Shown here: positions 19,837 to 38,359 of the stretch, one piece after another
Layout of the letters: each line of letters opens with the position of its first letter
Numbering within the stretch: position 1 is the stretch's first letter
DNA from: Gulosibacter macacae
GTDB taxonomy: Bacteria; Actinomycetota; Actinomycetes; Actinomycetales; Microbacteriaceae
Reading direction: 5' to 3'
DNA length: 38,705 nucleotides
Assembly: GCF_003865375.1 (NCBI RefSeq)
Contig: NZ_RQVS01000015.1
Coordinates: 1 to 38,705, forward strand
Notes under the pieces: model-generated
Databases searched by the model: none
What the model saw: the letters and a program-made list of their open reading frames with translations, nothing else
Told to the model about the DNA's origin: nothing
Position numbers and translations under genes: made by a program

Positions 19837-19874
19837 GGCCCCGACTTCCCTACATTTAGGCGGAAGTTGGGGCC
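19837..19874. terminator. 13-bp inverted repeat after tRNA-His
   Basis: GGCCCCGACTTCC (19837-19849) pairs with GGAAGTTGGGGCC (19862-19874) with one G-U. It is 8 nt past the tRNA CCA end and could terminate tRNA-His transcription or that of the opposing integrase remnant. No T-run follows on the plus strand. Confidence 0.6.
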
Positions 19875-20445: not shown

Positions 20446-20646
20446 GTGGCTGAGCCATGGCTGTCCGCAGATGACATCGCCGCCCACCTCGGGGTCACCA
20501 AAGACACCGTCTACACCTGGATCGCCGAGAAGGCCATGCCCGCCCACAAAGTCGGACGCCTCTGGAAGTTCCAAGCCAGCGAGATCGACGACTGGGTGCG
20601 ACGAGGTGGGGTTGCCGCCGACTCCGAACTCTCGCCGCCACGGTGA
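20446..20646 (+). CDS. excisionase-family helix-turn-helix protein
   Basis: A 66-residue MerR/excisionase-type DNA-binding domain (HTH_17 class): WLSADDIAAHLGVTKDTVY makes the helix-turn-helix, followed by the wing segment AHKVGRLWKF and a last helix ASEIDDWVRRGG. GTG 20446 is set by GAGGAGGA 5 nt upstream. Such proteins act as recombination directionality factors or transcription regulators. Because it heads the BREX operon and lies 90 nt before brxA, a regulator of defence expression is plausible; because it also lies next to an integrase remnant, it could be a leftover excisionase. The sequence does not decide. Confidence 0.85.
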   Translation: MAEPWLSADDIAAHLGVTKDTVYTWIAEKAMPAHKVGRLWKFQASEIDDWVRRGGVAADSELSPPR

Positions 20647-20735
20647 GCGCGTCACTCACTTCGAGCCCCCGCTGACACTTTGTCGGTGGCACCACATATC
20701 CTGATCCACTGCCCAAAATCGGAAGGAGGCACCAG
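20647..20735 (+). promoter_or_regulatory. gap before brxA, possible promoter
   Basis: The gap holds CTGACA near 20,670 and ATATCC about 17 nt later, a weak -35/-10 pair, then AAGGAGG close to the brxA start. The BREX genes may thus have a promoter separate from the HTH gene. This is weak evidence. Confidence 0.3.
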
Positions 20736-21356
20736 ATGAGCATTACGTCTCAGGGACACGACCGATACGCCCTCTCCTTCACCAGTGGTGCCCTCCTGGC
20801 TCGGGAGGCGGTAATCGCGGTGCCGCTCTTCCTCGAGGTTCGTGACTGGGGTCTGGTTCGAGACCGGCTCCGTTCAGAGAACTTGCTCCAGGCGCGAACC
20901 GCGTCGTCCGGATTCCGGTTGGCGCGCGAGATCGCGCAGCGATTGGCGGTGCTCACGCACCCGGAGCTGGAGTTGCTGCGAGATGCCAGCCCCAGCGAAC
21001 GCGGTCACCTAATGTGGGTCGCCGCATGCCGACGCTACGCACTCATCGGCGACTTCGCGGAAGAGGTAGTACGCGAGCGCTTCCTCCTGCTCACTCCCAC
21101 CTTGGGATACGACGACTTCGACAGCTTCGTTCGTGGGAAAGCGCTGTGGCACCCCGAGCTCGCAGAGGTGAAGGACTCGACGTTGCAGAAGCTCCGGTCG
21201 ACCGTGTTCCGCATGCTGACCGAGGCTGGACTGCTTGCAGGCGGCGAGATCGTCCATGCGGCGCTGTCAGAGCGTGTCCGGGACGCACTCGACGCTCAGC
21301 TACCAAGCGACCTCCGCTACCTCCCGGCCCGCGACATCAAAGAGGTCTCGTTGTGA
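20736..21356 (+). CDS. brxA: BREX protein BrxA (DUF1819)
   Basis: A 206-residue BREX component, a small mostly helical DNA-binding protein of the DUF1819/NusB-like group. Family pattern: YALSFTSGALLAREAVIAV at the N-terminus, RTASSGFRLAREIAQRL, LMWVAACRRYALIGDFAEEVVRERF, and LQKLRSTVFRMLTEAGLLA near the end. ATG 20736 follows AAGGAGG with good spacing. The stop overlaps the brxB GTG (GTGA). It is the first of the type I BREX set, usually encoded beside brxB. Its exact biochemical task in BREX is not settled, though DNA binding has been shown for homologues. Confidence 0.93.
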   Translation: MSITSQGHDRYALSFTSGALLAREAVIAVPLFLEVRDWGLVRDRLRSENLLQARTASSGFRLAREIAQRLAVLTHPELELLRDASPSERGHLMWVAACRRYALIGDFAEEVVRERFLLLTPTLGYDDFDSFVRGKALWHPELAEVKDSTLQKLRSTVFRMLTEAGLLAGGEIVHAALSERVRDALDAQLPSDLRYLPARDIKEVSL

Positions 21357-21952
21357 CGCCCCATGAACTTTCGCGCCAGGAAGAGCATCTGTTCGCGGTG
21401 CTCAGTGGCGATCGCTTCCTGAAGATGGAGGGCTTGTCCAACGAGGTCCCGTTCTTCATCTACCCCTACGCGCCGGAGCATGCGCTTGATGTCGCGAAAG
21501 CCAAGAAGCGCGTCAAGAACCGCCTGGCAGGCAAGGGCATCGAGGTACGCGAGATCAACCTCTACGACCTGTCGATCGACGTCCTCAAGCAGCGCGGCGA
21601 CTGGGACGAAGTGCTTGAGGTCGAGCCCGAATTGGACAAGGCCGAGTTCACCGAGATGTTGCAGTCCATGCTCAACCCGCAGCAGCACCTGGCTCCCGCA
21701 ATCCGCGATCAGCTGGCTGAGGGCGAGTTCGACATCGTGTTCCTGACCGGGATCGGCGAGGTCTTCCCCTACATCCGGTCTCACAACGTGCTCAACAACT
21801 TGCAGAGCGTTGTGGTGGGCCGGCCGATGCTCATGTTCTTCCCCGGCCGCTACGAGCAGTCCGACACGCTCGGCTCATCGCTCGTGCTGTTTGGCAGGTT
21901 GAAGGACGATCAGTACTACCGCGCCAAGAACATTCTGGAACAGGAACCGTGA
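21353..21952 (+). CDS. brxB: BREX protein BrxB (DUF1788)
   Basis: A 199-residue BREX protein of the DUF1788 family. Typical parts are FAVLSGDRFLKMEGLSNEVPFFIYPY, LYDLSIDVLKQRG and FDIVFLTGIGEVFPYIRSHNVLNNLQ, followed by PMLMFFPGRYEQ. The start is GTG 21353, overlapping the brxA stop by GTGA, which signals translational coupling; the frame is open far upstream but overlaps brxA. Its own stop overlaps the brxC GTG in the same way. Its molecular role is unknown; genetic work in other species shows it is needed for BREX activity. Confidence 0.93.
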   Translation: MTPHELSRQEEHLFAVLSGDRFLKMEGLSNEVPFFIYPYAPEHALDVAKAKKRVKNRLAGKGIEVREINLYDLSIDVLKQRGDWDEVLEVEPELDKAEFTEMLQSMLNPQQHLAPAIRDQLAEGEFDIVFLTGIGEVFPYIRSHNVLNNLQSVVVGRPMLMFFPGRYEQSDTLGSSLVLFGRLKDDQYYRAKNILEQEP

Positions 21953-24900
21953 CCGTCATGCAGCTCACTGAGATTTTCGCCAAGGACGTCCAGCGGCCCA
22001 TCGAGGGCGTCATCAAGGCCGACGACGCCCGGCACCTGGGCACCGAGGTTGACGAGTACGTTCTGACTAACGAGGCCGCCAAGGGACTTGAGTTGCTGCT
22101 GGAGGCGTACACGAACTACACCAACGCGAACGGCGTGTGGATTTCAGGCTTCTTCGGCTCCGGTAAGTCGCACCTCTTGAAGATGCTCGCGCACCTCCTC
22201 GGCGATGTGGAGGGTGACGATTTCCCTCGCGAGCGCGTCTCGGAGAGCTTCCGCGCCAAGGCGACGGATGCCTTCCTCCCACCCCTCCTCGACAAGGCCG
22301 ACCGCATCCCAGCCAAGAGCCTGTTGTTCAACATCGATCAGAAGGCCACCCTGATCAGCAAGGATCAGACCGACGCCCTCCTACGCGTGTTCGTGAAGGT
22401 CTTCGACGAGTCTCGCGGCTACTACGGCGACCAGGGACACATCGCCCACTTCGAGCGCCAGCTCGACGACGAGGGGCAACTCGATGCGTTCAAGAGCGCG
22501 TTCCAAGCTGCGTCGGGCCGGGAGTGGCTGGAGCGCCGACCGAGCTTCGGCCTTCCAACCGTGCGCAAGCAAGTCAACGAGGCATACGCCCAGATCACCG
22601 GCCTCGACGCATCTGCCGCACCCGACATCTTGAAGACCTACCAGGACACCTACTCGGTCTCGATCGAGGACTTTGCCGACGAGGTCCGCACCTGGCTAGA
22701 CAAGCAGCCCGCAGGCTACCGATTGAACTTCTTCGTGGATGAGGTCGGCCAGTTCATCGGCTCGAACACGCATCTGATGCTGAACCTTCAGACGATCGCC
22801 GAGTCGCTGAACACGAAGTGCGGCGGACGGGCCTGGGTGTTCGTGACCTCCCAGGAGGACATGGACAAGGTCGTCGGCGACCGCACCAAACAGCAGGGCA
22901 ACGACTTCTCGAAGATTCAGGCCCGGTTCAAGACCCGAGTGAAGCTCACCTCCGCAGACGTCGAAGAGGTCATCCGCAAGCGACTGCTGGAGAAGAACGA
23001 CAAGGGCACCCAGGTGCTCGAAGCCGTCTACGCGCAGGAGTCTGCGAACTTCAAGACACTGTTCGACTTCGTCGATGGAGCGAAGACCTACCGGAACTTC
23101 ACAGACGAGACCCACTTCGTCGGCACCTACCCGTTCGTGAGCTACCAGTTCCCGCTGTTCCAAGCCGCGATCGAGGGCATCTCCGACCACAACGTCTTCG
23201 AGGGCCGCAACAGTTCCGTTGGTGAGCGCTCCATGCTCGGCGTCGTCCAGCAAGTCGCCAAGGACATCGGCAATGTCGAGATCGGCACGTTGGCCACCTT
23301 CGACGCCATGTTCGCAGGCATCCGCGCGTCGTTGAAGTCCGCGGCACAGCGCTCGATTGACCGCGCCGAGCGCGACCTGCCCGACAGCGGTTCACCAGTC
23401 ACCAAGCTCGCCGTGCGACTGCTCAAGGCACTGTTCCTGGTGAAATACGTCGAGAGCTTCCAGGCCACTCCGCGCAACCTGACCGTGCTCGTCTACGACC
23501 GATTCGGGCTCGATCTGCCAGCGTTGTCCAAGCAGGTCCAGGAAGCGCTGACGCTGCTGGAGACGCAGACCTACGTGCAGCGCAACGGCAATGTCTACGA
23601 GTACCTGACCAACGAAGAGCAGGTGATCGAGGAAGAGATCAAGAACGTCGAGATCGACTCCTCCGAGGTCTCTACCCGGCTGAACAAGATTCTGTCCGGC
23701 GATGTCGTCAAGACCTCGAAGCTCCGGTACGCCAAGAACGGGCAGGACTTCCCGTTAGGGTACAAGCTCGACGACCAGGCATTCGGCCAGCAACGCGAAC
23801 TCTCTCTGCACTTCATCACTCCCGAGTACCCATACGGTCCGGAAGAGATTCGGATGCACTCGGCAGGCAAGGACGAGCTCCGTGTGATCCTCGCTCCCGA
23901 TGACCGGGCGCTGGCCGACCTGCGGCTGCTGATCAAGACCGAAAAGTACACCAAACGCAAGCAGACCAGTTCACTCTCTCCGGTCGAGGAGCAGATTCTG
24001 CGCGCCAAGGCGACTCAAAACGCGCAGCGCGAGAAGGAGCTTGTAGAGCGAATCCGCCGCGCCGTCGGGCGAGCCGATCTCGTGATCAACGCCGCAGACC
24101 TCACATCCGGGTCGCAGGAAGCAGTCACGCGGATCACCGAGGGGTTCCAAGACCTCATCGCGCGTACCTACACGCAGCTCAGCCTGCTCGGTGGACGCAC
24201 CTACAGCGAGCAGCAGGTTGCCGGGTTCGCGAACCCCGACCAAGCCGCCATGATTGACGACTCCTCAATGCACGCGCTCGCGGCCCCGGCAGATGAGGTG
24301 CTGTCGTACGTCCTGCAGCGCGACCGTCTCGGGGAGCAGATCACCGTCAAGAAGATCGTCGATCACTTCCAGGCCAAGCCCTACGGATGGGACCTCGCCT
24401 CCATCGAGTGCGTCGTCGCCTGGCTCGTCGGCACCTCGAAGATCACTCTCACGGTGGACTCGAATATCCTCAAGCGCAGCGAAATCGCGGCAGCACTGCG
24501 CAACACACAGAAGCACTCCCACGCCGTCGTCGCACCTCAGAAGACCTTCGACCAGCGCAAGGTCGCCACGCTTCGGGCCTTCTGCACGGACTTCTTCGAT
24601 GAACCCGCCGTGCCGAAAGACCCGCTCGAACTGGCCCGGCACACAAGCGAGCGCCTCCGCGCCAAGAGTGAAGAACTCAAGGCGCGAGTCAGCGGCTCCA
24701 AGTACCCCTTCGTGACTCAGCTCGAAGCTCCGATCGCGCTGCTGGATTCTGTCGTGGGCAAGCCCGATGACTGGTACCTGACCGACTTCGCCGCTACCGA
24801 CGACCTGCTCGACGCGAAGACAGACATCATCGACCCCATCCAAGCCTTCCTCGGCGGCGCCCAGCGCAAGATTTACGACGAGGCAAGCGAACTCCTCACG

Positions 24901-25470
24901 ACCAACGCCAACAACCTCAACTATCTGCCCGCCGGCAGCAGCCAGGAGGTGGCCGGACTCCTCGCCGACCCGCAAGCCTTCCGTGGCAACCGGATGACCA
25001 AGTTGAAAGCCGCCGCAGTCGAGCTTGAGGCGCGCATCAGCGAGGCGCTTCTCGCGAACCGCGACGCTGCGCTCCTGGAGATCGACTCACGTTGGGCGCC
25101 CCTCCAGACCAGCACGATCTACCTCGACGCCACTGACGCCGCCAAGCGCAACGCGACCCAGAAAGTCAACACGATCCTCGACCGGATCGGTCGAGAGAGC
25201 CAGATCGCCGTCGTCCGCGAGATCGCCAACACCTTCGAGGAACACACCTACCCGACCATCCTCGACCAACTCGCCGAGAACCCCCGTCCTCGCAATGACG
25301 ACACAGCGGTCTCGCCGGTTCCTGTGAAGCAGACCGTCTCGGTCAAGAGCATCAGCACCACAGGCATCCACGGCGTCCTGGAGACCGAAGACGACGTAGA
25401 CCGCTACCTCGATGCGCTCCGCACCGCGCTGCTCCAGGCCCTCAACGACGACAAGCGCATCGCGCTGTAG
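21949..25470 (+). CDS. brxC: BREX ATPase BrxC
   Basis: A 1,173-residue P-loop ATPase, core of the BREX complex. Walker A is GFFGSGKS (residues 67-74); Walker B is LNFFVDEVGQF (Asp264-Glu265); the N-terminus MQLTEIFAKDVQRPIEGVIKAD is typical of BrxC. The middle part (TKRKQTSSLSPVEEQILRAK, QNAQREKELVERIRRAVGRA) includes charged helices. The length fits the family, about 1,150-1,250. The first GTG overlaps the brxB stop; an ATG 9 nt later is also possible. Only 12 nt separate it from pglX. It is thought to couple ATP use to the PglX/PglZ complex on DNA. Confidence 0.95.
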   Translation: MTVMQLTEIFAKDVQRPIEGVIKADDARHLGTEVDEYVLTNEAAKGLELLLEAYTNYTNANGVWISGFFGSGKSHLLKMLAHLLGDVEGDDFPRERVSESFRAKATDAFLPPLLDKADRIPAKSLLFNIDQKATLISKDQTDALLRVFVKVFDESRGYYGDQGHIAHFERQLDDEGQLDAFKSAFQAASGREWLERRPSFGLPTVRKQVNEAYAQITGLDASAAPDILKTYQDTYSVSIEDFADEVRTWLDKQPAGYRLNFFVDEVGQFIGSNTHLMLNLQTIAESLNTKCGGRAWVFVTSQEDMDKVVGDRTKQQGNDFSKIQARFKTRVKLTSADVEEVIRKRLLEKNDKGTQVLEAVYAQESANFKTLFDFVDGAKTYRNFTDETHFVGTYPFVSYQFPLFQAAIEGISDHNVFEGRNSSVGERSMLGVVQQVAKDIGNVEIGTLATFDAMFAGIRASLKSAAQRSIDRAERDLPDSGSPVTKLAVRLLKALFLVKYVESFQATPRNLTVLVYDRFGLDLPALSKQVQEALTLLETQTYVQRNGNVYEYLTNEEQVIEEEIKNVEIDSSEVSTRLNKILSGDVVKTSKLRYAKNGQDFPLGYKLDDQAFGQQRELSLHFITPEYPYGPEEIRMHSAGKDELRVILAPDDRALADLRLLIKTEKYTKRKQTSSLSPVEEQILRAKATQNAQREKELVERIRRAVGRADLVINAADLTSGSQEAVTRITEGFQDLIARTYTQLSLLGGRTYSEQQVAGFANPDQAAMIDDSSMHALAAPADEVLSYVLQRDRLGEQITVKKIVDHFQAKPYGWDLASIECVVAWLVGTSKITLTVDSNILKRSEIAAALRNTQKHSHAVVAPQKTFDQRKVATLRAFCTDFFDEPAVPKDPLELARHTSERLRAKSEELKARVSGSKYPFVTQLEAPIALLDSVVGKPDDWYLTDFAATDDLLDAKTDIIDPIQAFLGGAQRKIYDEASELLTTNANNLNYLPAGSSQEVAGLLADPQAFRGNRMTKLKAAAVELEARISEALLANRDAALLEIDSRWAPLQTSTIYLDATDAAKRNATQKVNTILDRIGRESQIAVVREIANTFEEHTYPTILDQLAENPRPRNDDTAVSPVPVKQTVSVKSISTTGIHGVLETEDDVDRYLDALRTALLQALNDDKRIAL

Positions 25471-25482
25471 GAGACCCCACCC

Positions 25483-28400
25483 ATGGAAACCGCACCGCTG
25501 AAGAGCTTCGCCACATGGGCCAGGCGAGAACTCATCACCCAGGTCAGCGCCCGGCTGACCGCAGTACTCGCCCCCTCCTCACCGGAACGGGTCGAGAACC
25601 AGCGCGCAGTGGCCATGCTCGAACGCGATATGGCAGCCGCCGGAGGCGGTGCCAAGGGCAAGGACGCGATCGCCGACAAGGTCGCCTACACCTGGTTCAA
25701 CCGCATCATCGCGCTCCGTTTCATGGACGCCAACGGCTACACCGGCATCGGCGTCGTCTCACCCGCTCACGGCCAGCAAGTCGGACAACCCGAGATACTC
25801 GCTGACGCCAAACGAGGCAGCATCGACCCCGCCGTCATCACCAGCAAGCGCACCCTCGACGCGATCACCGGCCTCCTCGACGGAACCCGCCCCAGCGCAG
25901 ACGCCCAGGGCGAGGCCTACACACTCCTGCTTGCCGAGTACTGCCGTTACTGGAACCGCTCGATGCCGTTCATGTTCGAGCGCGAAGGTGACTACACCGA
26001 ACTCCTCATCCCCGCGAACCTCCTCGCAGCAGACTCCATCCTCACGCGGGCAACCGCGGCTCTCACCGAAGAGGTCTGCCGCGAAGTCGAAGTGATCGGC
26101 TGGCTCTACCAGTTCTACATCTCTGAACGGAAAGACGAAGTCTTCACCGGATTCAAGAAGGGCCAGAAGGCCGGAGCCGCCGAAATTCCCGCTGCGACAC
26201 AGCTCTTCACCCCGCGCTGGATCGTCCGCTATCTCGTTGAGAACTCCGTTGGCCGACTCTGGATGCTTAACCACCCCGAGTCCCATCTCGTCGACCAGAT
26301 GGACTACTACATCGCGCCGGTCGACGACAATGCCGACTTCCTCAAGATCACCAGCCCCGAGGACCTGACGGTCATCGACCCAGCCTGCGGGTCCGGACAC
26401 ATGCTCACCTACGCGTTCGACCTGCTCTACGCGATCTACGAGGAGGAGGGCTACGCTCCGTCCGATATTCCGGAGCTGATCCTCGCTCACAACCTCTATG
26501 GCATCGAGATCGACCCACGTGCCGGAGCGCTGGCAGCGTTCGCACTCACCATGAAGGCGCGCGCCAAGCAGCGCACGTTCTTCGGCCAGCAGGTCCAGCC
26601 GAACATCTGCGTGCTTGAACCGATCTCGTTCAGCCCTGACGAGTTGGACTACATCATCACCGCGGATGGCGACAAGCACGCAGAGGAACTGTTCTGGAAC
26701 CAGTTCGCCGGAGCCGACACCCTCGGGTCACTCATCCAGCCCGATCCCGATCTGACCGTCCGACTCGGCCAACACCTCGCGACGCTCCACGACGAAGGCG
26801 ACATCCTCCGCGCCGATTCGATCGAGCGGGCCCAGCAGACGATCCGACAGGCGGAGTTCTTGTCCGCTCGTTATTGCCTCCTCGTTGCGAATCCCCCCTA
26901 CATGGATGCTCGCAACATGGGCGGGGCTCTGTATGACTTCGTAGTAGAGCACTTTCCGAAAGCATTCACTGGGATAGACCTCGCCTTCGTGCTTCGGTCG
27001 CGTTCACTAGTACAGCCGATGGGTTACCTTGCGCTTCTGAACATGGATAGTTGGCTCGGGAACGTCGAATGTGCGGAGTTCCGAGATGTCGTCCGTGAGA
27101 CATTGTCTCCCCGAATACTTCTCCATCTCGGGCCGCGCGCATTCCCCGAGATCGCAGGTGAAGTCGTCCAGGTCTCTGCCACGCTCTTCCAAAATGCCGC
27201 CCCAGGCTCCGCGAAGAGCATCTTCATCGCCGCCACCGGAGGAGCTACCACGGATGCAAAGGTGGCGCAGTTCCGGGACTCGTCTCGGCACTACGGGCAC
27301 ACGCTTGACTGGTTCGATGTCTTTCCGGGCCGGGTTTTCACCCCGTATGCGGCATCCGAAAGCGCACACAGCACGTTTGCCTCAGCATCGGCAATGAGTT
27401 CGATCGCTGAGGTCCGCACAGGACTCCAGACCGGAGACAACTCCCGGTTCCTACGCCAATGGTTTGAGGTCTCCTATTCCAACGTTCGTGTCGATGGTCT
27501 TGGCGACAACTCACGCTGGGTGCCGTACGTGAAGTCAAGTTCACCGACTCGATGGTTCGCACGCGAGGACCTGGTCGTTGACTGGCGGGGCGACGGTGCC
27601 GAGATTCGAGCGCATCCGAGTTCCGTGGTTCGAAACTCAACGTACTACTTTCGGCCTGGCCTTTCCTACGGTGGGCTCGCGGGGAATCTCAAGGCGCGCC
27701 TTGTTTCAACGGACACCATCTTCGATCAGAAGAACTCGATGGTATTCCCGGTTGGGGCAACCACGATAGAGCAACTGCTCGCGCTCATGAACAGCCCGGC
27801 CTTCGAGGTTTTGGCGCGGCTCGTTTCGCCAAAGGGTTTCGGCGTTGGTACGCTCTCCCAGCTCCCGATCCCGAAGGAGACGCTGGCAGCGCCGCGCATC
27901 GAAGCGATCGCGCAGCAAGCGATCGAGTTGTCACGGGCAACTTTTGATCGGTCGGAGATATCTCGCGGGTTCGTTGGTCTCGACTCGATCTTCATGGGTG
28001 CTGAGAGGCATCCCTTACTTCGGTTCAGCGTGAGATCCATGCAGGAGATGGATGCCCGGATTCAGAGCGAGCTGAGAGACATCGAGACCGAGAATGCTCG
28101 TATATTCCAAGCGGCCCTGCTCGCTGTCGCTGACTGGTCGCCAGCGGAGGTACCGCTCGCGCCGCCGTACTCAGAAGCGTCAGTCGTGCGGGACCTGGTC
28201 TCGTATGCGATCGGCTGCATGTTCGGTCGGTACAGCCTCGACGAACCCGGCCTGATTCTCGCTGACCAGGGCGCCACGCTGCAGGACTACCTCGCCAAGG
28301 TGCCACAGCCGACGTTCGTTCCTGATGCGGACAACGTGCTGCCGATCGTTGATGGTGACTGGTTCGAGGACGACATTGTGGCGAGGTTCCGCCAGTTCCT

Positions 28401-28926
28401 GCGGGTGGCGTTCGGCGAGGAGCACTTCGAGGAGAATCTGCGTTTCGTTGAGGAGTCGCTCGGCGTCAAGGCTCTGCGGGAGTACTTCGTTACCCGTGCC
28501 GGACGATCCAAGTTCTACGACGATCACGTGAAGCGTTATAAGAAGCGCCCGATCTACTGGCTGTTCTCCAGCCCGAAGGGCTCGTTCAACGCGTTGATCT
28601 ACATGCACCGCTACACGCCGTCTACGGTCTCGACGGTTCTGAACGAGTACCTGCGGGAGTTTGAGTCGAAGCTGGAGGCGAACCTTCAGCACCAGGTGCG
28701 TCTCACCGCCGGGGACGGTACGCCTCGCGAGAAGGCAGCGGCGCTCAAGGAAGCCGAGCGGCTCCGCAAGGTGCTGGTGGAACTCAGCGAGTACGAGCAT
28801 GACGTGCTCTACCCGCTTGCGTCTCAGCAGGTCTCCATCGATCTCGACGATGGGGTGAAGGCCAACTATCCCAAGTTCTACCCGGCCCTCAAGAAGATCG
28901 CAGGGTTGGAGGCTACCGATGACTGA
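25483..28926 (+). CDS. pglX: BREX adenine-specific DNA methyltransferase PglX
   Basis: The methyltransferase that marks host DNA at an asymmetric adenine site and sets BREX specificity. AdoMet motif DPACGSGHM is at residues 299-307 and the catalytic NPPY at 470-473. It has 1,147 residues, within the type I PglX range. The central and late part (about residues 465-880), which follows NPPY and should include the target recognition region, has visibly less GC-biased codons than both ends. ATG 25483 has AGGAGA about 9 nt upstream. Its stop overlaps the next start (ATGACTGA). There are no frameshifts, so it should be active. Confidence 0.96.
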   Translation: METAPLKSFATWARRELITQVSARLTAVLAPSSPERVENQRAVAMLERDMAAAGGGAKGKDAIADKVAYTWFNRIIALRFMDANGYTGIGVVSPAHGQQVGQPEILADAKRGSIDPAVITSKRTLDAITGLLDGTRPSADAQGEAYTLLLAEYCRYWNRSMPFMFEREGDYTELLIPANLLAADSILTRATAALTEEVCREVEVIGWLYQFYISERKDEVFTGFKKGQKAGAAEIPAATQLFTPRWIVRYLVENSVGRLWMLNHPESHLVDQMDYYIAPVDDNADFLKITSPEDLTVIDPACGSGHMLTYAFDLLYAIYEEEGYAPSDIPELILAHNLYGIEIDPRAGALAAFALTMKARAKQRTFFGQQVQPNICVLEPISFSPDELDYIITADGDKHAEELFWNQFAGADTLGSLIQPDPDLTVRLGQHLATLHDEGDILRADSIERAQQTIRQAEFLSARYCLLVANPPYMDARNMGGALYDFVVEHFPKAFTGIDLAFVLRSRSLVQPMGYLALLNMDSWLGNVECAEFRDVVRETLSPRILLHLGPRAFPEIAGEVVQVSATLFQNAAPGSAKSIFIAATGGATTDAKVAQFRDSSRHYGHTLDWFDVFPGRVFTPYAASESAHSTFASASAMSSIAEVRTGLQTGDNSRFLRQWFEVSYSNVRVDGLGDNSRWVPYVKSSSPTRWFAREDLVVDWRGDGAEIRAHPSSVVRNSTYYFRPGLSYGGLAGNLKARLVSTDTIFDQKNSMVFPVGATTIEQLLALMNSPAFEVLARLVSPKGFGVGTLSQLPIPKETLAAPRIEAIAQQAIELSRATFDRSEISRGFVGLDSIFMGAERHPLLRFSVRSMQEMDARIQSELRDIETENARIFQAALLAVADWSPAEVPLAPPYSEASVVRDLVSYAIGCMFGRYSLDEPGLILADQGATLQDYLAKVPQPTFVPDADNVLPIVDGDWFEDDIVARFRQFLRVAFGEEHFEENLRFVEESLGVKALREYFVTRAGRSKFYDDHVKRYKKRPIYWLFSSPKGSFNALIYMHRYTPSTVSTVLNEYLREFESKLEANLQHQVRLTAGDGTPREKAAALKEAERLRKVLVELSEYEHDVLYPLASQQVSIDLDDGVKANYPKFYPALKKIAGLEATDD

Positions 28927-29965: not shown

Positions 29966-32457
29966 GTTCACTCAGCGCTGTCCTGCCTCACCTGGAGCAG
30001 AGGTTCGATTCACAGCGCCTGGTCTTCTGGCACGACGCAGACGGTGAGTACGCCGCCGAGCTTGACGCGCTTGATCTCAGCGGCGTGACCATCGTGCGGG
30101 TCGAGAACAACGAGTATGCCGTGAAGAACCGCGTGCTCCACGACGAGCCAGCGGGCAAGTTTCTCCTGTACCGAGGCGCTCCTGTTCCTCCGGGTACTGG
30201 GAACTGGCTGCTTGATCTTGAGCTTGCCTACGGGGTCTTCACCGCTGACCGGACCGCGCTTGTGAGCCAGGACCTTGGCCTCAGCGGTAGCGGGATCGAT
30301 GAGGTGGTGCGAGAGCACGAGAAGTTTTTCCGCGTCGCCAAGCGAGTCCAGAGTCTCAAGGCGCTCCTCGCGACCGACGATGACGCCGACAGGTTGCAAG
30401 CGAAGATGTCGGCGGTGGTGCTCGGCCAGCGCGAGCACAGCATGCTAGAGCTCACGCGCGCATTGCTGATCGAGAACGCACGCGGGGCGCACACCAAATA
30501 CGACGCGCTGGCCGAGCAGAGCCTCGACGGTTTCCACTGGGCCGGTGTTGCCAAGGTTTATGGCTACGAAGCAAGTGAGCCCAGCGTCGACGACTTCGTA
30601 CTGTGGATGTTCCGCCAGGCAATCAACGGGTTCGCGTCGGACACGCCCGGAGCCCTGCGCAACATCCAGCTCGACTTCGCGAGCCTGCGCAACGACCGAC
30701 GCAGCGCCGATGCGCTCGCCACGTTGGCTCGGCACGCAGCGGAGAGCCTCGACTACGCCAGCAGCATCGAGAATGCCGAACTGCCTGAACTTGTGGGCAA
30801 CGATCTCTTTGAGGACGTGGAGCGCAAGATCATCAGCGCGCTCACGCAGGCGATCGTCGAGCGGACAATGAGCGCACGCGAGGTTTCCGAGACGATCCGT
30901 GCCCGACAGAGCAGCATCTGGGTTGATCGATACCGGGAACTCTACGCCGCGCTCGCCGCTGCCTCCGACCTGCTGAGCGAGCTCGCGACTGCAAGATTCG
31001 AGATCGCGTCGTTCGATGACGGACTCGACCGGTACCGCAAGCACTGGTTCCGCATCGACCAGCTGTACCGACAGTTTCACTTTGCCGCCCGCACAACCGA
31101 GTACGCAGGCCCTCTCGAAGCGCTCCGGGTCGAGGTGGAGAAGCACTACGCGAACCGATACCTCTACGAGCTCGGCAACGCCTGGCAACAGCAGGTCGAT
31201 GCCGTGACTGACTGGCGATCAGTCGCACTCCGCCCGCAGACAAGGTTCTTCACCGATCACGTCGAGCCCATCATCAGGAAGGTCAACCGGAAGGCCGTCG
31301 TCATCATCTCCGATGCGCTGCGCTACGAGGTCGCCGAAGAATTGGGTTCACGTATCCGCCAGGAAGACCGCTTCGACGCGGAACTCGACGCGATGCTGGG
31401 TGTGCTTCCGAGCTACACACAACTCGGTATGGCCGCCCTGCTTCCGCACAAGACGCTGGCCCACTCGCACGATGGCGACCCGGTGCTCGTTGACGGCCAG
31501 CGTTCCGACGGGACAGGGAACCGCAACAAGGTGCTGGCTCCGGTGGACGGGTTCGCGATCCAGGCCGAGGACGTCCTCGCTATGCCGCGTGGCGAGCTGC
31601 GCGAACTCTATGGCGCGCACCAGGTGTTGTACGTGTACCACGACCGGATCGACGCTGCAGGCGACAAGGCCCGCACCGAACGTCAGGTGTTCGAGGCCGC
31701 CAACGACGCGCTGCGCGAACTGGTCGACATCATCAAGCGACTGACGAACGCGAACGCCACGAACATCCTGGTGACTGCTGACCACGGCTTCCTCTACCAG
31801 GACACCGCGCTTGCCGATGCCTCCTACCTCTCGACCAAGCCGCAGGGCGACGAGCTCGTCGTGACAAACCGTCGATACGTGCTCGGCCGGGGACTCAAGG
31901 ATAATCCCGCGTTCCGGAAGTTCGAGCCTGAACAGCTCGGGCTCAGCAGCGACCTTGAGGTGCAGCTTCCCAAGTCGATCCATCGACTCAAGCTGCCGGG
32001 CGCGGGCTCCCGGTTCGTCCACGGCGGCGCCGCACTCCAGGAGGTCGTCGTTCCGATACTCACCGTCAACAAGAAACGCAAGAGTGACACTCGGCCCGTC
32101 AACGTCGAAGTACTGCCCGAGACGGACAAGATCACCACCGGCCAGCTCGTCGTGAAGCTCTTCCAGTCCGAACCGGTCGGCGAGAAGGTTCAGGCCCGCA
32201 CACTACGGGCTGGCCTCTACGTCGGCGAGACCCTGATCTCGAATCAGCCCGAGCTGCTCTTCGACCAGCCTTCCGACGACAAGCGCGACCGCTATCAGAG
32301 TGCACGGATGCTCCTCAGCCAGGACGCCAACGAGTTCAACAACCGCACGGTCGAGTTCCGACTCGAAGAGCAGATACCCAACACCACCCAGTGGCGCGTC
32401 TACCAGCGGGCTCAGTACCTGCTCAAGCGCTCGTTCATATCGGACTTCGATTTCTAA
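29962..32457 (+). CDS. pglZ: BREX-1 phosphatase-like protein PglZ
   Basis: An 831-residue protein of the alkaline-phosphatase superfamily, the hallmark of BREX. Metal-binding stretches are VVIISDALRYEVAEELG (near residue 450), TNILVTADHGFLYQDT (near 606) and RFVHGGAALQEVVVPIL (near 686). The N-terminus begins FWHDADGEY, as in the BREX-1 type A form. ATGA overlap joins it to the DUF1016 gene. PglZ homologues bind divalent metal and may cleave phosphodiesters; the function in defence is not fully known. Only 13 nt separate it from brxL. The frame is intact. Confidence 0.95.
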   Translation: MSSLSAVLPHLEQRFDSQRLVFWHDADGEYAAELDALDLSGVTIVRVENNEYAVKNRVLHDEPAGKFLLYRGAPVPPGTGNWLLDLELAYGVFTADRTALVSQDLGLSGSGIDEVVREHEKFFRVAKRVQSLKALLATDDDADRLQAKMSAVVLGQREHSMLELTRALLIENARGAHTKYDALAEQSLDGFHWAGVAKVYGYEASEPSVDDFVLWMFRQAINGFASDTPGALRNIQLDFASLRNDRRSADALATLARHAAESLDYASSIENAELPELVGNDLFEDVERKIISALTQAIVERTMSAREVSETIRARQSSIWVDRYRELYAALAAASDLLSELATARFEIASFDDGLDRYRKHWFRIDQLYRQFHFAARTTEYAGPLEALRVEVEKHYANRYLYELGNAWQQQVDAVTDWRSVALRPQTRFFTDHVEPIIRKVNRKAVVIISDALRYEVAEELGSRIRQEDRFDAELDAMLGVLPSYTQLGMAALLPHKTLAHSHDGDPVLVDGQRSDGTGNRNKVLAPVDGFAIQAEDVLAMPRGELRELYGAHQVLYVYHDRIDAAGDKARTERQVFEAANDALRELVDIIKRLTNANATNILVTADHGFLYQDTALADASYLSTKPQGDELVVTNRRYVLGRGLKDNPAFRKFEPEQLGLSSDLEVQLPKSIHRLKLPGAGSRFVHGGAALQEVVVPILTVNKKRKSDTRPVNVEVLPETDKITTGQLVVKLFQSEPVGEKVQARTLRAGLYVGETLISNQPELLFDQPSDDKRDRYQSARMLLSQDANEFNNRTVEFRLEEQIPNTTQWRVYQRAQYLLKRSFISDFDF

Positions 32458-32470
32458 GGAAGCAGCAGCC

Positions 32471-34597
32471 ATGACGGACACCGAGAGCCGCCCCGGCGAG
32501 GAACGCAACGCCGAGCCGGGCACACCGCAGCAGAGCGACCTTGATTACAAGATCAACCTGCTCTTCGGCGGCTCCGTCGTCCGCAAAGACCTCGTGAAGG
32601 CCGTCAAAGGCAACGCGATCGTCCCCTCCTACGTGCTGGAGTACCTGCTCGGCCAGTACGCCGCCTCTGACGACGAAGCAACCATCCAGGCGGGAATTGA
32701 CGCGGTGCGCAAAATTCTCGCCGACCACTACGTGCACCGCAACGAGTCAGAACTGGTGAAATCCACCATCCGGGAGAAGGGTCGCCACCGGATCATCGAC
32801 AAGGTCTCCGTGACCCTGAACGACAAGCAGGACGTGTACCAAGCCTCGTTCGCCAACCTCGGGATCAACGGCGTGATCGTCGAACCCGCGACGGTGAAGG
32901 CGAACCCAAAGCTGCTGGTCGGCGGCGTGTGGTGCATCTGCGACATCGAGTACTTCCACAGCGACGACACCCGCGTCGTGCCTTGGATACTGGGAAGCCT
33001 GAAGCCCATCCAGATGTCAAGCTTCGACTACGAGGGCTATCTCGCATCACGGAAGGGGTTCAACACCGAAGAGTGGATCGATTTGCTGATCCAATCCATC
33101 GGGTTCAACCCTGAGCTGTTCGGACGACGGGCCAAGCTGCTGCAACTCGTCCGTCTCATCCCGTTCGTCGAGCGGAACTACAACCTGGTTGAGTTGGGGC
33201 CTAAAGGCACCGGAAAGTCCCATATCTACTCCGAGTTCTCGCCCCACGGAATGCTGATCTCTGGTGGCGAGGTCACCGTCCCGAAGCTCTTCGTGAACAA
33301 CGCCAACGGCCGCATCGGTCTGGTCGGCTACTGGGACGTGGTGGCGTTCGACGAGTTCGCCGGCAAGAAGAAGCGCACCGACAAGGCGCTCGTCGACATC
33401 ATGAAGAACTACATGGCGAACAAGTCGTTCTCCCGTGGCGTCGAGACCCTCGGAGCTGAAGCGTCGATGGTGTTCGTGGGCAACACCTCGCACAACGTGC
33501 CCTACATGCTCAAGCACTCTGACCTGTTCGACGAACTGCCGGAGGCGTACCACGACTCCGCCTACCTCGACCGCCTCCACTTCTACATCCCCGGTTGGGA
33601 GGTAGACACGATCCGCAGCGAGATGTTCTCCTCCGGGTACGGATTCGTCGTCGACTACATCGCCGAAGTGCTCCGATCTATGCGGAACACCGATTACTCC
33701 GACCGCTACCAGCAACACTTCACGCTCGGATCCGACATCTCCACACGAGACCGAGACGGCATCCACAAGACCTTCTCTGGCCTGATGAAGCTCATCTTCC
33801 CGGGCGGCGAGGCCACGCAAGAAGAGATCGAGGAACTGCTGCGCTTCGCCGTGGAAGGACGCAAGCGCGTCAAGGACCAGATTCTTCGGATCGACACCAC
33901 AATGGCCGCCGTCAACTTCGGCTACTCCGACAAGACCGGCACCTGGCGTGGCGTCACCACGTTGGAAGAGGACGAGTACCCCGACTACTACCAGGCTCGC
34001 CGCGCCGAGGCCGAGGGCGAAGTAGAGTCGTCGACGGAGCCTGGGTCCGCGCAAGCAGAGGTCGCAGTTGCGGCTCCAGTTGCTCCCGAGGCGGCGGCGC
34101 CCCTGTTCGAAGGGCACCGCGAGTTCCAAGAGAACCAGCGTGGAGTCTCGTACGAGACGCTGCTCATGCCCTACCTGCGCGATGCCACCAACATCACCAT
34201 CATCGACCCCTACATCCGGCTCCCGCACCAGGGACGTAACTTGGCCGATCTGCTGGCCCTGCTCGCGGCGGCCAAGGATCCTGCCGACGAGATCGCGGTG
34301 ACGCTGGTGACCAAGGAGGACCGCGGCGAGTACGCCCAGCAGCACCTCTTCATGCTGAAGGACATCCAAGACAGCGCCGCCACCGTCGGCATCCAGTTCA
34401 CCGTCACCTGGGACGAGACCATCCACGACAGGTCGATCCGCACCGACCATGGGTGGAAGCTTCTCCTCGGGCGGGGGCTCGACATCTTCCAGAAGGGCTC
34501 CGGTAGCCAGTTCGACCTCGGCTCCCGCCGCCAGGAGTTCCGCCAGGTCTTCGCCTTCGGCATCACCTACATCAACGAGCAAGAGGGGGCCCGATGA
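32471..34597 (+). CDS. brxL: BrxL-type AAA+ protein with MIT C-terminal (PLD-like) domain
   Basis: The sixth standard BREX-1 gene, a 708-residue product. The N-terminal region (DYKINLLFGGSVVRKDLVKA) and ATPase core (Walker A GPKGTGKS 243-250, Walker B VVAFDEFAG with Asp294-Glu295, sensor FVGNTSHN) are those of BrxL, a DNA-binding hexamer. In place of the Lon protease domain with its Ser-Lys dyad, after a Glu/Ala-rich linker (about 515-555), the last 150 residues read YETLLMPYLRDATNITIIDP, YIRLPHQ, IHDRSI (His652-Asp653-Arg654) and GWKLLLGRGLDIF. This resembles the MIT_C phospholipase-D-like fold of MITD1. ATG 32471 follows AAGGAAG. ATGA overlap with the next gene. Confidence 0.9.
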   Translation: MTDTESRPGEERNAEPGTPQQSDLDYKINLLFGGSVVRKDLVKAVKGNAIVPSYVLEYLLGQYAASDDEATIQAGIDAVRKILADHYVHRNESELVKSTIREKGRHRIIDKVSVTLNDKQDVYQASFANLGINGVIVEPATVKANPKLLVGGVWCICDIEYFHSDDTRVVPWILGSLKPIQMSSFDYEGYLASRKGFNTEEWIDLLIQSIGFNPELFGRRAKLLQLVRLIPFVERNYNLVELGPKGTGKSHIYSEFSPHGMLISGGEVTVPKLFVNNANGRIGLVGYWDVVAFDEFAGKKKRTDKALVDIMKNYMANKSFSRGVETLGAEASMVFVGNTSHNVPYMLKHSDLFDELPEAYHDSAYLDRLHFYIPGWEVDTIRSEMFSSGYGFVVDYIAEVLRSMRNTDYSDRYQQHFTLGSDISTRDRDGIHKTFSGLMKLIFPGGEATQEEIEELLRFAVEGRKRVKDQILRIDTTMAAVNFGYSDKTGTWRGVTTLEEDEYPDYYQARRAEAEGEVESSTEPGSAQAEVAVAAPVAPEAAAPLFEGHREFQENQRGVSYETLLMPYLRDATNITIIDPYIRLPHQGRNLADLLALLAAAKDPADEIAVTLVTKEDRGEYAQQHLFMLKDIQDSAATVGIQFTVTWDETIHDRSIRTDHGWKLLLGRGLDIFQKGSGSQFDLGSRRQEFRQVFAFGITYINEQEGAR

Positions 34598-35991
34598 CAA
34601 CAACGAACACCGCAACGGAGTCGGAGGATGACGCCAAGGGCCTCCTCGTCATCGGTGGCACGGTGAAAGAGATCATCACGACATCCGAGCCGAAATTGGT
34701 CCGGGAACATCTGGGTTCGCTGCTGCAAGTGAAGAACCTCGTCGTCCTTCTTGGCTCTGGCGCGTCGTTCCACTTGGGCTCTCCAAAGACGCGAGACCTG
34801 TCCAATGAGCAGGTACTTGGGCTCATCAGGGAGGCTGGCGGTGAACCAACGGAGGAACACCAATCGCTCCTTGCCACGATCAATCCCACCGACAGCGGTG
34901 ATCTAGAAAAGCTCCTGAACGGACTCCAGCTTGCCGCATCGCTTGCGACGCAAGCTGGCCAGGACTCGGTGACGCTCGGTTCGGGGGCGGACGCCAAGTC
35001 CTACCCGAAGAAGCAGGTCGATGCCTTGCGACAACAGATCAACCGGGCGCTCGCCGAAGCATGCCGTCTGCCGAAACCCGGCAAGCCGTTGGACGCACCG
35101 TTCGATTCCGACCCACTGCTTGCGCACCGGACGTTCCTCTCCCGAATCATCCGTAGTCGTCGCGTCAATCTGCCAAGGCCACAAGTCTTCACCACGAACT
35201 ACGACCTGGTCATTGAGAGCGCCCTCGATCAACTCGGATATCCGTACATCGACGGCTTCAGCGGGACGGTCGAACGTCGCCTCAACCTCGCGTTCTACGG
35301 ACTTGACTTCCACCGAGTCGAAACGACGACGCAATCGGTGCTGGCGCGCGCTGAGGGGGCCATCTATCTGCACAAGGTCCACGGCAGTCTCAACTGGCGA
35401 TCGTCCAGCGACAAGGATCGGTTGACCGGACTTGAGTCACTAGAGGTGAGACACAGCAACGCCTTCCCCGAAGACGACCAGCTGGTGTTGATCTACCCGA
35501 CTTCAGCGAAGGAGGGTGACACCCTCGCATACCCGTACTCAGACCTCCTTCGGCTACTGGGTGATGCTGTACAGCAGGAAGACACCGCAGTAATCGTCGT
35601 TGGCTACGGATTCGCCGACCCGCACATCAACCGTCTACTTCTCCGCAGCCTTGCCACGAACTCCGCTCTCAATGTGCTGGTGGCTGATCCCTTCGCGGTG
35701 CTTGAAGACGCAGACATCTCCTCGCTAACGTCGGACTCTCTCCAGCAGCACCTCAGCGATCTCGACGTTACGCCGAAGAAAACGGCAATCGCTGCCCTCG
35801 CTACCTCCAGTGACTCCCGCATTTCCGTACTCACTGGCGAGTACGGCAAGTTCACGGAGCTTTCCCGCCTCCTACCGGGATCATCCCAGTTGGGCGATAC
35901 ACCCACGGCCGTTACAGCACTGATCGAGGCGCTTGAGCAAGCTGCGCGTGACGGCAACTTGCCAGCCTCGGGAGTGAAGTCCAATGACTGA
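34594..35991 (+). CDS. SIR2-domain defence protein (probable NADase)
   Basis: A 465-residue SIR2-like protein. NAD-binding motifs are GSGAS (54-58), TTNYD (200-204), HGS (263-265) and GYGFADPHINRLLL (337 on). In phage defence, SIR2 domains hydrolyse NAD+ and stop infection by cell dormancy or death; that Asn202 and His263 are the catalytic residues here is by analogy. It starts in the brxL stop (ATGA) and its end overlaps the HerA gene by 8 nt, so a fixed ratio of both proteins is expected. Codon use is less GC-biased than in brxC or brxL, hinting at a separate origin. No transmembrane segment. Confidence 0.9.
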   Translation: MTTTNTATESEDDAKGLLVIGGTVKEIITTSEPKLVREHLGSLLQVKNLVVLLGSGASFHLGSPKTRDLSNEQVLGLIREAGGEPTEEHQSLLATINPTDSGDLEKLLNGLQLAASLATQAGQDSVTLGSGADAKSYPKKQVDALRQQINRALAEACRLPKPGKPLDAPFDSDPLLAHRTFLSRIIRSRRVNLPRPQVFTTNYDLVIESALDQLGYPYIDGFSGTVERRLNLAFYGLDFHRVETTTQSVLARAEGAIYLHKVHGSLNWRSSSDKDRLTGLESLEVRHSNAFPEDDQLVLIYPTSAKEGDTLAYPYSDLLRLLGDAVQQEDTAVIVVGYGFADPHINRLLLRSLATNSALNVLVADPFAVLEDADISSLTSDSLQQHLSDLDVTPKKTAIAALATSSDSRISVLTGEYGKFTELSRLLPGSSQLGDTPTAVTALIEALEQAARDGNLPASGVKSND

Positions 35992-38059
35992 GACCGGCAT
36001 TATCGGACGTGTAATCGACGTCCGCAGCACGACGATCCGAGTCGCGCTGGACGTTGGATCGAAGGGCTTCACGAAGGTGGGTCCTGACGGTCTCCAGACC
36101 GTCGGTGTGGTGAACTCCTACATAACGGTACCTGCTGGCGCGCATCGCGTTGTTGGCATCGTCAGCGGCGTCTACATCAGCGGGAGAGACGACCAAAAGG
36201 TAAAGGCACCTCTCCTTAGCCAGGACGACACGGCAGCCTATGAACTTGAAGCGACGGTGGTAGGCCGCTTCGAGAACGACTGCTTCAAGTCTGGGCTGAC
36301 TGGATACCCTCCGCTTCACGCGCCAGTGCAGGCAGCCACGCCTGGCGAAGTGAAGAACATCTTTCTCTCCAAGGGCGGCCCGTCGCTTCGTATTGGCACT
36401 TCGGCGGTGGCCGCTGAGCAGGCTGTTCACCTTGATGCCAACCTGCTCCTCGGTCATCACTGTGCTGTTGTCGGCTCCACGGGCTCCGGCAAGTCCTGCA
36501 CTGTCGCCGCCATCATTGATGGGCTATTGGATCACGGAATCCCCAATGGGCATATCGTCATCTTCGATATCAACGGAGAGTACGCACAGTCCTTCGGGTC
36601 TTCTACGCCTCGGGGCAAGAAGACTCGGCCGCTGGTGCTCGGCCCCAAGCCGGGGACGGACTCCGGACTCTTCCTACCGCACTGGTTCATGAACAACGAG
36701 GAGCACATGAGCCTCCTCAAGGCCAGCGAAGGTGTTCAAGCTCCCGTGCTCCAGCGGTCCATAGCTGATGCGCGAGTAGCTGGAGCCTCAACGAATTTGG
36801 ACTTGCTCCGTCTGCAGAACCTGCTCAGTTCTATGGGGATCATCGAAGGAGCCTTCAGTAACACCAAGAGTGGCTCAGATACGACCTTCGCCCAGCTCGA
36901 CGGTATGACCAACCTGGTCAATGGCCAGCTTGGTCAAGCAAGTGTGTGTTCTGCGCAATGGTCGCAAATAAAGGTGATTCTCGATGCTGGTACGCCTCAG
37001 GCCTCCGTGTCGAATGTCCAGTGGACGCCACTAACAGCACCTCAACGCGACATCCTTGCGAGGATGTTTGTCGCCATCCGGAAAGAGATCTCGGCTGCTT
37101 TCGGCGCGCTCGGCATGGGTAGCGCTCAAGCAGCGCCTGACTTCGACGCGCCTGTGTACTACTCGCTCCAGGAGCTGTGCGACTTTTTCCTCCCAAACCG
37201 AATTCAGATGGAGCAGGCGAATGACAGCAAGATCGCTGGCTACGTCGCGACACTACAGATGCGCCTGAGTCGGCTACTCGCCGATGGTCGCTACGACTTC
37301 ATAACGCGGGTCGAAAAGCACGACGACCCCCTCGGAACTTATCTCAAGGCGCTCCTGGGCGTCGACCCAACAAACGACAACGCGGCTTCCGACTGGCCTG
37401 CAACGTCCCACCATCGTGCGCAGAGCGCCACACATGGCGATGGTCCGTCTGTGACAATCTTCGACCTCAGTCTCGTCGCTAACGACGTCCTGGAGAGCGT
37501 CACCGCGCTATTGGGTCGAATCCTCTTTGACTTCGCAGTTCGGAGCCATCCGCGTGCTGAGCACCCGGTCATGTTGGTGCTCGAAGAAGCACACCGCTTC
37601 ATACCGTCCCGGCTAGATTCCACCGGTGGGGTGAATCGCTCAGCGGTCATCTTCGAACGCATCGCGAAGGAAGGCCGCAAGTTTGGGCTCTCACTTCTGC
37701 TCGCAAGTCAGCGTCCGAGCGAACTCAGTGAAACCGTCGTTGCCCAATGCGGGACCGTCATCGCGCACAGGCTCACCCACGAGGCCGACCAGCGGTTGCT
37801 CCGTCACGCAACAGCTCTTAGTTCCCGCGCGCTACTTGAACAGCTGCCAAGCCTCGCGCAACAACACGCTCTCGTCACTGGTGTCAGCACCGGGGTGCCA
37901 GTTGCTGTTCGCGTCCGCGATGTTCAGAACCCGCCGAAGAGTGACGATCCGAAGTTCATCGACATCTGGAGCGATGCCCAAAGGCTCGCGACCCTTCCAG
38001 ATCACATCGACACCGTGGTTCGAGACTGGCAGGGGGACGTAGGCTCAGTTGCGCCATAG
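35984..38059 (+). CDS. HerA-type hexameric ATPase/helicase (SIR2 partner)
   Basis: A 691-residue FtsK/HerA-like motor. The N-terminal 70 residues form the HAS beta-barrel (TGIIGRVIDVRSTTIRVAL). Walker A is GSTGSGKS (164-171), Walker B is VMLVLEEAHRF (Glu534-Glu535), and an arginine-rich stretch IAKEGRKFGLSLLLASQRPSE and AHRLTHEADQRLL are typical of DUF87 ATPases. It overlaps the SIR2 gene. SIR2-HerA pairs are known to act as a joint complex (Nezha-type), with NADase and nuclease-like activities triggered by phage. It is the last gene of the operon; beyond it is debris. Confidence 0.92.
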   Translation: MTETGIIGRVIDVRSTTIRVALDVGSKGFTKVGPDGLQTVGVVNSYITVPAGAHRVVGIVSGVYISGRDDQKVKAPLLSQDDTAAYELEATVVGRFENDCFKSGLTGYPPLHAPVQAATPGEVKNIFLSKGGPSLRIGTSAVAAEQAVHLDANLLLGHHCAVVGSTGSGKSCTVAAIIDGLLDHGIPNGHIVIFDINGEYAQSFGSSTPRGKKTRPLVLGPKPGTDSGLFLPHWFMNNEEHMSLLKASEGVQAPVLQRSIADARVAGASTNLDLLRLQNLLSSMGIIEGAFSNTKSGSDTTFAQLDGMTNLVNGQLGQASVCSAQWSQIKVILDAGTPQASVSNVQWTPLTAPQRDILARMFVAIRKEISAAFGALGMGSAQAAPDFDAPVYYSLQELCDFFLPNRIQMEQANDSKIAGYVATLQMRLSRLLADGRYDFITRVEKHDDPLGTYLKALLGVDPTNDNAASDWPATSHHRAQSATHGDGPSVTIFDLSLVANDVLESVTALLGRILFDFAVRSHPRAEHPVMLVLEEAHRFIPSRLDSTGGVNRSAVIFERIAKEGRKFGLSLLLASQRPSELSETVVAQCGTVIAHRLTHEADQRLLRHATALSSRALLEQLPSLAQQHALVTGVSTGVPVAVRVRDVQNPPKSDDPKFIDIWSDAQRLATLPDHIDTVVRDWQGDVGSVAP

Positions 38060-38071
38060 AGCGGAATCGAC

Positions 38072-38359
38072 TTACGTGGCAAGTAGGCTCACCCGGTCAC
38101 CACGCACACACCTGAGCGCCGCGCAGGCTTGAAGAGGTAGCACACGGTTGCCGAGCGCGGTGATCTGCTGGTTATGCGTCAGGTCATCGGCGCCGGTGAC
38201 CCATTCGGTGGGCAGGCCCATCAGCCACTCCACGAACGCGGGTGCCGGGCGGGGGCCGTCGGTGTCGTTCAGGAGGGCCGGTGCGGGCGCTGACCGTCCG
38301 GCCTGACTCGTGCCACTTGACGTGAATCTGGTGGGTTGGTTCGCGTTTGCGCTGGTCAA
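38072..38359 (-). pseudogene. C-terminal fragment of a DNA (cytosine-5) methyltransferase-like gene
   Basis: The minus strand reads FVEWLMGLPTEWVTGADDLT followed by HNQQITALGNRVLPLQACAALR to a stop at 38072. This is the conserved end of phage-type cytosine methyltransferases (FVEWMMGLP…LGNGVVPLQA). The homology extends back only to about 38,300; the catalytic PCQ part is not in the window and the upstream sequence is unrelated. It faces the HerA gene, with stops 12 nt apart. A broken remnant from another mobile element is likely. Confidence 0.7.

Follow-up and report, generated by a model that had tools for sequence, protein, structure and literature searches.

Gene content and layout of the operon

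We analysed a stretch of Gulosibacter macacae DNA (the window, one entire contig of 38705 bases from a genome of 2.82 Mb) that carries a type I bacteriophage exclusion (BREX) operon with two additional modules, a DUF1016 nuclease gene and a SIR2-HerA gene pair. Nine genes run on the + strand from 20736 to 38059 in the order brxA-brxB-brxC-pglX-DUF1016-pglZ-brxL-sir2-herA, behind a helix-turn-helix gene, as an earlier note on this DNA had described:

20446..20646, + strand: HTH_17 (excisionase/MerR-like) DNA-binding protein of 66 amino acids (aa), putative operon regulator; PF12728, 54.2 bits against a cut-off of 27
20736..21356, + strand: brxA; PF08849, 3.1e-49; PADLOC BrxA
21353..21952, + strand: brxB, GTG start, overlapping brxA by 4 nucleotides (nt); PF08747, 1.5e-41; PADLOC BrxB
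21949..25470, + strand: brxC, Walker A GFFGSGKS; NF033441, 1173 bits against 400
25483..28926, + strand: pglX, type I BREX adenine methyltransferase with NPPY; NF033452, 1147.7 bits against 500
28919..29965, + strand: DUF1016/YhcG PD-(D/E)XK nuclease, cargo of the pglX-pglZ slot, with D...E-L-K; PF17761 and PF06250 above cut-off; PADLOC PDC-S02
29962..32457, + strand: pglZ type A; TIGR02687, 754 bits against 270
32471..34597, + strand: brxL, with BrxL_N, AAA+ and a C-terminal phospholipase D (PLD)-like domain bearing an HDRSIRTD (HRD) motif; PF20442, PF13337, PF16565
34594..35991, + strand: SIR2 NADase-like protein of a type A SIR2-HerA pair, cargo of the post-brxL slot, with TTNYD and KVHGS; PADLOC SIR2, 1.1e-61; PDB 8j4u chain A, 5.3e-27
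35984..38059, + strand: HerA ATPase of the SIR2-HerA pair; PADLOC HerA, 6.7e-189; PDB HerA chains including 8j4u_M

Six of the eight junctions overlap, by 4, 4, 8, 4, 4 and 8 nt, and the other two are gaps of 12 nt (brxC/pglX) and 13 nt (pglZ/brxL), so the tight operon reported in the note stands. Its gene order of type I BREX was also recovered. Pfam, PADLOC and NCBIfam searches found the set brxA-brxB-brxC-pglX-pglZ-brxL complete and in order with DUF1016 interposed between pglX and pglZ, the models BREX_1_MTaseX, TIGR02687 and NF033441 scored above cut-off, and the core belongs firmly to type I BREX. BrxL reached 617 bits with its equivalog model TIGR02688 (cut-off 329) and fell below the cut-off of the Lon-related model TIGR02653 (597 against 628), whose match stops before the PLD-like C-terminus. 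A reading of BrxL as a Lon-like protein was ruled out by its PF16565 domain and HRD motif. Walker A is present in BrxC, BrxL and HerA.

The HTH_17 gene ends 89 nt 5' of brxA. It runs into the brxA start in eight aligned relatives, and in locus L127 it looks frame-broken, as judged from the alignment. No WYL-domain BrxR regulator was found upstream of brxA, the gene at that place being the 66-aa HTH_17 gene, which lacks a WYL domain. A scan for sigma-70-type promoters over 19700-38705, poorly suited to this organism, gave no site against 2.4 expected by chance. The terminator scan gave 7 sites where chance would give 11.4; a single site, within brxB, lies on the operon strand. Rfam gave no match inside the operon at the gathering threshold.

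Identity of the added modules

The DUF1016 protein has both the DUF1016_N and the YhcG PDDEXK domain and keeps the catalytic D and E-x-K. All 11 aligned sequences have E-L-K or, in one of them, D-L-K. Sequence comparison with PDB returned chance matches only and no solved relative, and a search of viral contigs returned no relative. A defence role of this protein is a candidate label only, given by PADLOC type PDC-S02. The sir2 and herA genes are adjacent, overlap by 8 nt and encode proteins that both match chains of one solved complex (PDB 8j4u); the pair is probably a NAD-depleting module.

Independent exchange of cargo on near-identical cores

Relatives were collected by similarity to BrxL. 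This gave 80 loci, the best 80 of 582 confirmed stretches, from named genomes and with flanks of at most 10 kb. A further locus, L108, comes from genome G599, which belongs to the same taxonomic order as the window but to a different family, and its HerA is 98% identical. Twelve operons form a near set (the window, L108, L002-L010 and L058) whose pglZ-brxL blocks are 83-95% identical to the window, and thirteen loci (the eleven near-set relatives plus L011 and L026) were aligned to it.

Four operons of the near set hold all four combinations of two inner and two outer cargos. The window carries DUF1016 with SIR2-HerA type A, L058 carries DUF1016 with type B, L108 carries Schlafen with type A and L002 carries Schlafen with type B, while pglZ and brxL are 92.1-95.6% identical in all six pairs of these operons. 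Identity of the pglX-pglZ cargo is 97.1% between the window and L058, 88.1% (with 725 gap columns) between L108 and L002, and 44-48% in the other four pairs. Behind brxL it is 99.1% between the window and L108, 98.0% between L058 and L002, and 52-54% in the other four. Cargo pairs at 44-54% are unrelated or distant. Among the four pairs that share a cassette, three have a cassette more alike than their pglZ/brxL core, which points to movement after the cores diverged, the simpler reading, or to stronger constraint on the cassette. The Schlafen cargo of L108 comes with an extra 265-aa gene; the extra gene ahead of Schlafen (L108 12585-13442, - strand) has a hydrophobic, membrane-like stretch near its N-terminus as read by eye and no Pfam family.

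The exchange has sharp edges. Where cargo differs, local alignments end no more than about 50 nt from the pglX, pglZ and brxL ends, except in L004, where a DUF1016 fragment extends them. Identity breaks on both flanks of the central pglX part (about 26920-28190) in 11 of the 13 aligned loci and on the right side only in L003, L009 not being judged; the core blocks beside it stay 80-95% identical in near relatives. By its place, the pglX middle is probably the specificity region, and methylation specificity has probably been exchanged too.

Several operons retain scars that support cargo turnover, as read from the alignments. L004 holds two gajA pieces and a DUF1016 gene with an internal deletion, and L008 holds 341 nt of sir2-B. 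In L003 the first sir2-A bases are fused to the end of a frame seen behind the type B cassette (by eye, it resembles a second GTPase); with only 11 nt past the brxL stop, this trace is the weakest of the scars.

A single obligate composite of BREX, DUF1016 and SIR2-HerA was rejected, since all four cargo combinations occur on one core and both modules have relatives without BREX. For the same reasons we did not retain the note's step from coupled translation to functional linkage; functional coupling read from gene overlaps alone was set aside as unproven. The locus is most likely a complete type I BREX chassis with an HRD-type BrxL, in which DUF1016 and SIR2-HerA are exchangeable, self-contained cargo, co-expressed with BREX and acting as mechanistically separate backup layers. 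PglX marks self (host) DNA. One regulated transcript would supply all layers simultaneously: BREX would act against unmarked phage DNA, BrxL-HRD and DUF1016 would add DNA cleavage, and SIR2-HerA would respond to its own trigger and stop the cell if the phage still replicates. SIR2-HerA may have such a back-up role. Cargo would enter the operon through recombination in the flanking conserved genes, and the link between layers would therefore be one of co-expression and co-inheritance, not of an obligate joint machine.

Cargo slots and recurrence in relatives

We located SIR2-HerA and DUF1016 in the loci with a tblastn map and profile searches. Nine of the 80 loci (some truncated) carry SIR2-HerA no more than 10 kb from brxL, a lower bound because flanks are short in some loci. 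The pair stands immediately 3' of brxL in seven (L002, L011, L013, L015, L017, L026 and L058), between pglZ and brxL in L060 and upstream of pglZ in L070. Three subtypes occur near BREX, namely A (the window type), B (L002, L058, L013) and C (L060, L070), called from the best PADLOC models for the window, L002, L060 and L070 and from the HerA tree for the remainder. DUF1016 lies between pglX and pglZ in L033, L044, L058, L064 and L072; in L009 it stands ahead of pglZ with pglX not found, and L004 has a fragment. The expectation that relatives keep the extra modules with BREX was thus borne out, as either module recurs in the same places. Both occur together in one locus among the 80 and L108, namely L058, which has another SIR2-HerA subtype than the window; some flanks are short.

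The pglX-pglZ gap exceeds 300 nt in 23 of 70 scorable loci, and in 29 the two genes overlap or abut. Cargo kinds there, each scanned in one member, are DUF1016, Schlafen (AlbA_2 + HATPase), Shedu, GmrSD and an AAA_21 ATPase. A gap above 300 nt separates pglZ from brxL in 4 of 76 loci. In L003 it holds a UG5-nitrilase defence-associated reverse transcriptase (DRT; 6952-9996), with a relative in L006 (6949-9996; by clustering only), and in other loci SIR2-HerA (L060) and an ankyrin protein (L077). Behind brxL we found SIR2-HerA, Gabija (GajA in L005; GajB in L005 and L007) and LeoBC-like GTPases; L064 has an AAA_13 plus SbcC-like ATPase set there, and L014 a lone SIR2 protein assigned to candidate type PDC-S65. 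This place in the 12 near operons holds four intact SIR2-HerA pairs, two SIR2 scars, two Gabija systems and one Gabija scar; L006 has a NERD-UvrD gene 522 nt beyond brxL. Ahead of pglZ, a GGAG stretch stands 12 nt 5' of the start in 10 of the 12, at the end of otherwise unrelated cargos, and it is therefore likely the pglZ ribosome site, retained through cargo change.

The right edge of the post-brxL slot, common to the window, L002, L058 and L108, is a methyltransferase remnant:

38114..38301, - strand: 3' remnant of a convergent C5 cytosine methyltransferase gene; 90-93% identical patch in L002 and L058, and a long L108 match also ends at 38301

The methyltransferase frame is longer in L002 (19321-20475, - strand; PF00145, 1e-29) and in L058.

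Plain hitchhiking in a defence island, with chance neighbours, selection on each module alone and an operon layout that is only a by-product, appears very unlikely to us. Defence genes do cluster in general, and SIR2-HerA is also found alone or after a type I restriction operon. Chance neighbours sit poorly with differing cargos that start and end within about 50 nt of core gene ends with short overlaps kept, with the GGAG shared by unrelated cargos before pglZ, and with the pglX-pglZ gap that exceeds 300 nt in 23 of 70 relatives and is absent in 29.

The exchangeable-cargo reading can be taken further, to a docking chassis, and here we see an even chance of being right. The pglX specificity region and the pglX-pglZ, pglZ-brxL and post-brxL slots would each exchange independently through conserved flanks. 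Whole unrelated systems (DUF1016, Schlafen and Shedu; the DRT reverse transcriptase; two SIR2-HerA types, Gabija and dynamin-like GTPases) would be joined near start and stop codons so as to keep translational coupling, the inner slot favouring nucleases and the outer slot multi-gene abortive modules. If so, a cell could refit its target specificity and effector layers with the core retained.

The modules outside BREX

In HerA searches that counted the window's genome each time, the gene turned up at E<=1e-20 in 8 of 396 genomes of the order and 10 of 396 of the phylum, and at E<=1e-40 with PDLC04106 in 2 of 394 of the class; BrxL is present in 8 of 394 class genomes. These searches led to 14 SIR2-HerA pairs, the window's included. 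BREX genes were sought beside each pair by tblastn with the window proteins, in stretches of about 16-20 kb in which the pair was not always central, and were found beside two, the window itself and G599. This count leaves out L121, L122 and L123 (HerA-like match, SIR2 not found), L109 (a second stretch of the L108 genome) and two partial HerA matches of G1013. Plasmid HerA relatives from Rhodococcus opacus (82% identical), Mycolicibacterium poriferae (82%) and Corynebacterium glutamicum (67%) all have SIR2 and no BREX genes in 38 kb. The 15 distant SIR2-HerA loci that a HerA search drew from viral contigs likewise lack BREX genes in the stretch examined. SIR2-HerA is uncommon and usually occurs without BREX, yet at 9 of 80 BrxL loci it sits inside the operon or adjoining it. 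On a rough estimate this is far more than random placement of two rare genes would give, with the general clustering of defence genes explaining some share. On the M. poriferae plasmid (L101, 8791-20070) the pair follows a type I restriction operon and an SprT protease, and the module thus also adjoins other modification systems.

A HerA tree was built from 46 matches reduced to 37 rows, leaving out seven near-duplicate or partial rows, and L121 and L122 by the E-value limit. The BREX label needs six changes on it, all forced by starred branches. On the DUF1016 tree (11 rows) BREX linkage changes twice, with weak footing for two proteobacterial rows on very long branches. In four plasmid contexts of DUF1016 no BREX gene is annotated within 12 kb. 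The gene lies directly 3' of a site-specific integrase/recombinase gene in three of them (L104, L105 and L106, near 12000), overlapping it by 4, 4 and 11 nt, and a recombinase-nuclease pair is possible.

The note had also suggested that SIR2-HerA possibly guards against phages that overcome BREX. In an integrated arrangement of this kind SIR2-HerA, and DUF1016 with it, would be wired to BREX, and inhibition of BREX or a BREX-stalled phage genome would trigger NAD depletion. The likely sir2 start does overlap the brxL stop in all nine post-brxL operons (the seven above, the window and L108; by 4 nt in six, 8 nt in two and 1 nt in one), three distinct SIR2-HerA subtypes sit beside BREX, BREX-linked rows cluster on the HerA tree, and L058 likewise carries both kinds of cargo. 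Precedents are back-up effectors embedded in BREX and PARIS sensing the BREX inhibitor Ocr (PMC12839542; published reports are cited here and below for the parts consulted). Yet both cargos have been exchanged independently on near-identical cores, the modules have relatives without BREX, and only the two of the 14 pairs sit with it. In a Salmonella BREX-PARIS island, moreover, PARIS deletions leave methylation near wild type and Ocr cannot trigger PARIS (PMC11341690). We regard such wiring as unlikely, and the guard proposal was not supported.

Some observations weigh against separate, exchangeable layers all the same. The tight operon could also reflect real mechanistic coupling. On the HerA tree the BREX label clusters beyond what shuffles give: these average 9.7 changes, and 2 of 500 come down to six. 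Near-copies account for part of this clustering, several long branches meet on the tree, and the six changes may be fewer gains plus losses. The DUF1016 plasmid contexts are only four of 453 records, judged by annotation, and the locus set was chosen by likeness to this BrxL, so that 9 of 80 is not a frequency for BREX at large. L009 and L010, in the near set, have no recognised defence cargo behind brxL, and the Schlafen cassette shared by L108 and L002 is less alike than their core. Both SIR2-HerA proteins miss the NCBIfam equivalog cut-offs (SIR2_antiphage, 154.6 against 500 bits; HerA_antiphage, 230.3 against 800), and the activity of the module is for that reason to be read at best as that of a divergent subtype.

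Relation to published systems

Cargo between pglX and pglZ and backup nucleases in BREX are already published. Of about 9,000 genomes that have both pglX and pglZ, about 7,000 carry one or more genes between the two, BrxU and PARIS being among the commonest known (PMC11341690). Type I BREX with BrxU or PARIS embedded at pglX-pglZ or brxC-pglX (PMC8565348, PMC11341690) resembles the window in that a full core encloses a foreign defence gene. The window differs in having a DUF1016 nuclease as its inner cargo and a further module, of two genes and NADase type, behind brxL. Such analogues suggest that cargo inside the operon can act on its own, as BrxU does in conferring its protection alone (PMC8565348).

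In type I BREX, PglZ acts as a nicking nuclease, and 1030 of the 2913 type I taxa that have a BrxL carry its HKD/HRD type; the commonest auxiliary effectors of BREX are PD-(D/E)XK nucleases, and auxiliary nucleases and OLD-linked pairs are reported across BREX (PMC12839542, 2026). The backup nucleases and BrxL-HKD fusions of that report share with the window an HRD-type BrxL and a PD-(D/E)XK nuclease. The window differs in its SIR2-HerA, its DUF1016 and its cargo exchange, which the consulted parts of the report do not treat; its main text has no mention of Sir2, NAD+, NADase, DUF1016, YhcG, reverse transcriptase, dynamin or recombination.

SIR2-HerA forms a SIR2 dodecamer with a HerA hexamer, a NADase with reported nuclease and ATPase activities too, and in one pair HerA opens the NAD+ pocket (PMC12198126). 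The window pair resembles this complex (PDB 8j4u) in that both proteins match it, the genes are adjacent and the NADase motifs are kept; it differs in scoring below the equivalog cut-offs and in being encoded within a BREX operon rather than alone. The DUF1016 protein agrees with PADLOC PDC-S02 in both domains and in D...E-x-K, and differs in having no solved relative by sequence. In the open-access literature, judged mostly from titles and abstract openings, we found neither SIR2-HerA described as BREX cargo nor any account of cassette exchange.

If the exchangeable-cargo reading is correct, actinobacterial BREX operons would be natural expression cassettes for other immune systems. Near-identical cores with differing cargo would offer ready comparisons of what each layer contributes and of whether co-expression suffices, and the search for defence genes would gain a rule: inspect pglX-pglZ, pglZ-brxL and the place directly behind brxL, scars included.

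Features around the island

A tRNA-His gene (19754-19829) lies directly upstream of the island and is its probable integration site. It is followed by a short frame (20011-20169, - strand) with no Pfam family, which by eye reads as the remnant of a tyrosine-integrase C-terminus. A NAD synthase gene (16509-17663, - strand) lies 2 kb upstream of the tRNA-His boundary and is probably a chance neighbour of the probable NAD-depleting module. Farther out, a thiamine pyrophosphate (TPP) riboswitch (Rfam RF00059) occupies 4072-4178 on the - strand.

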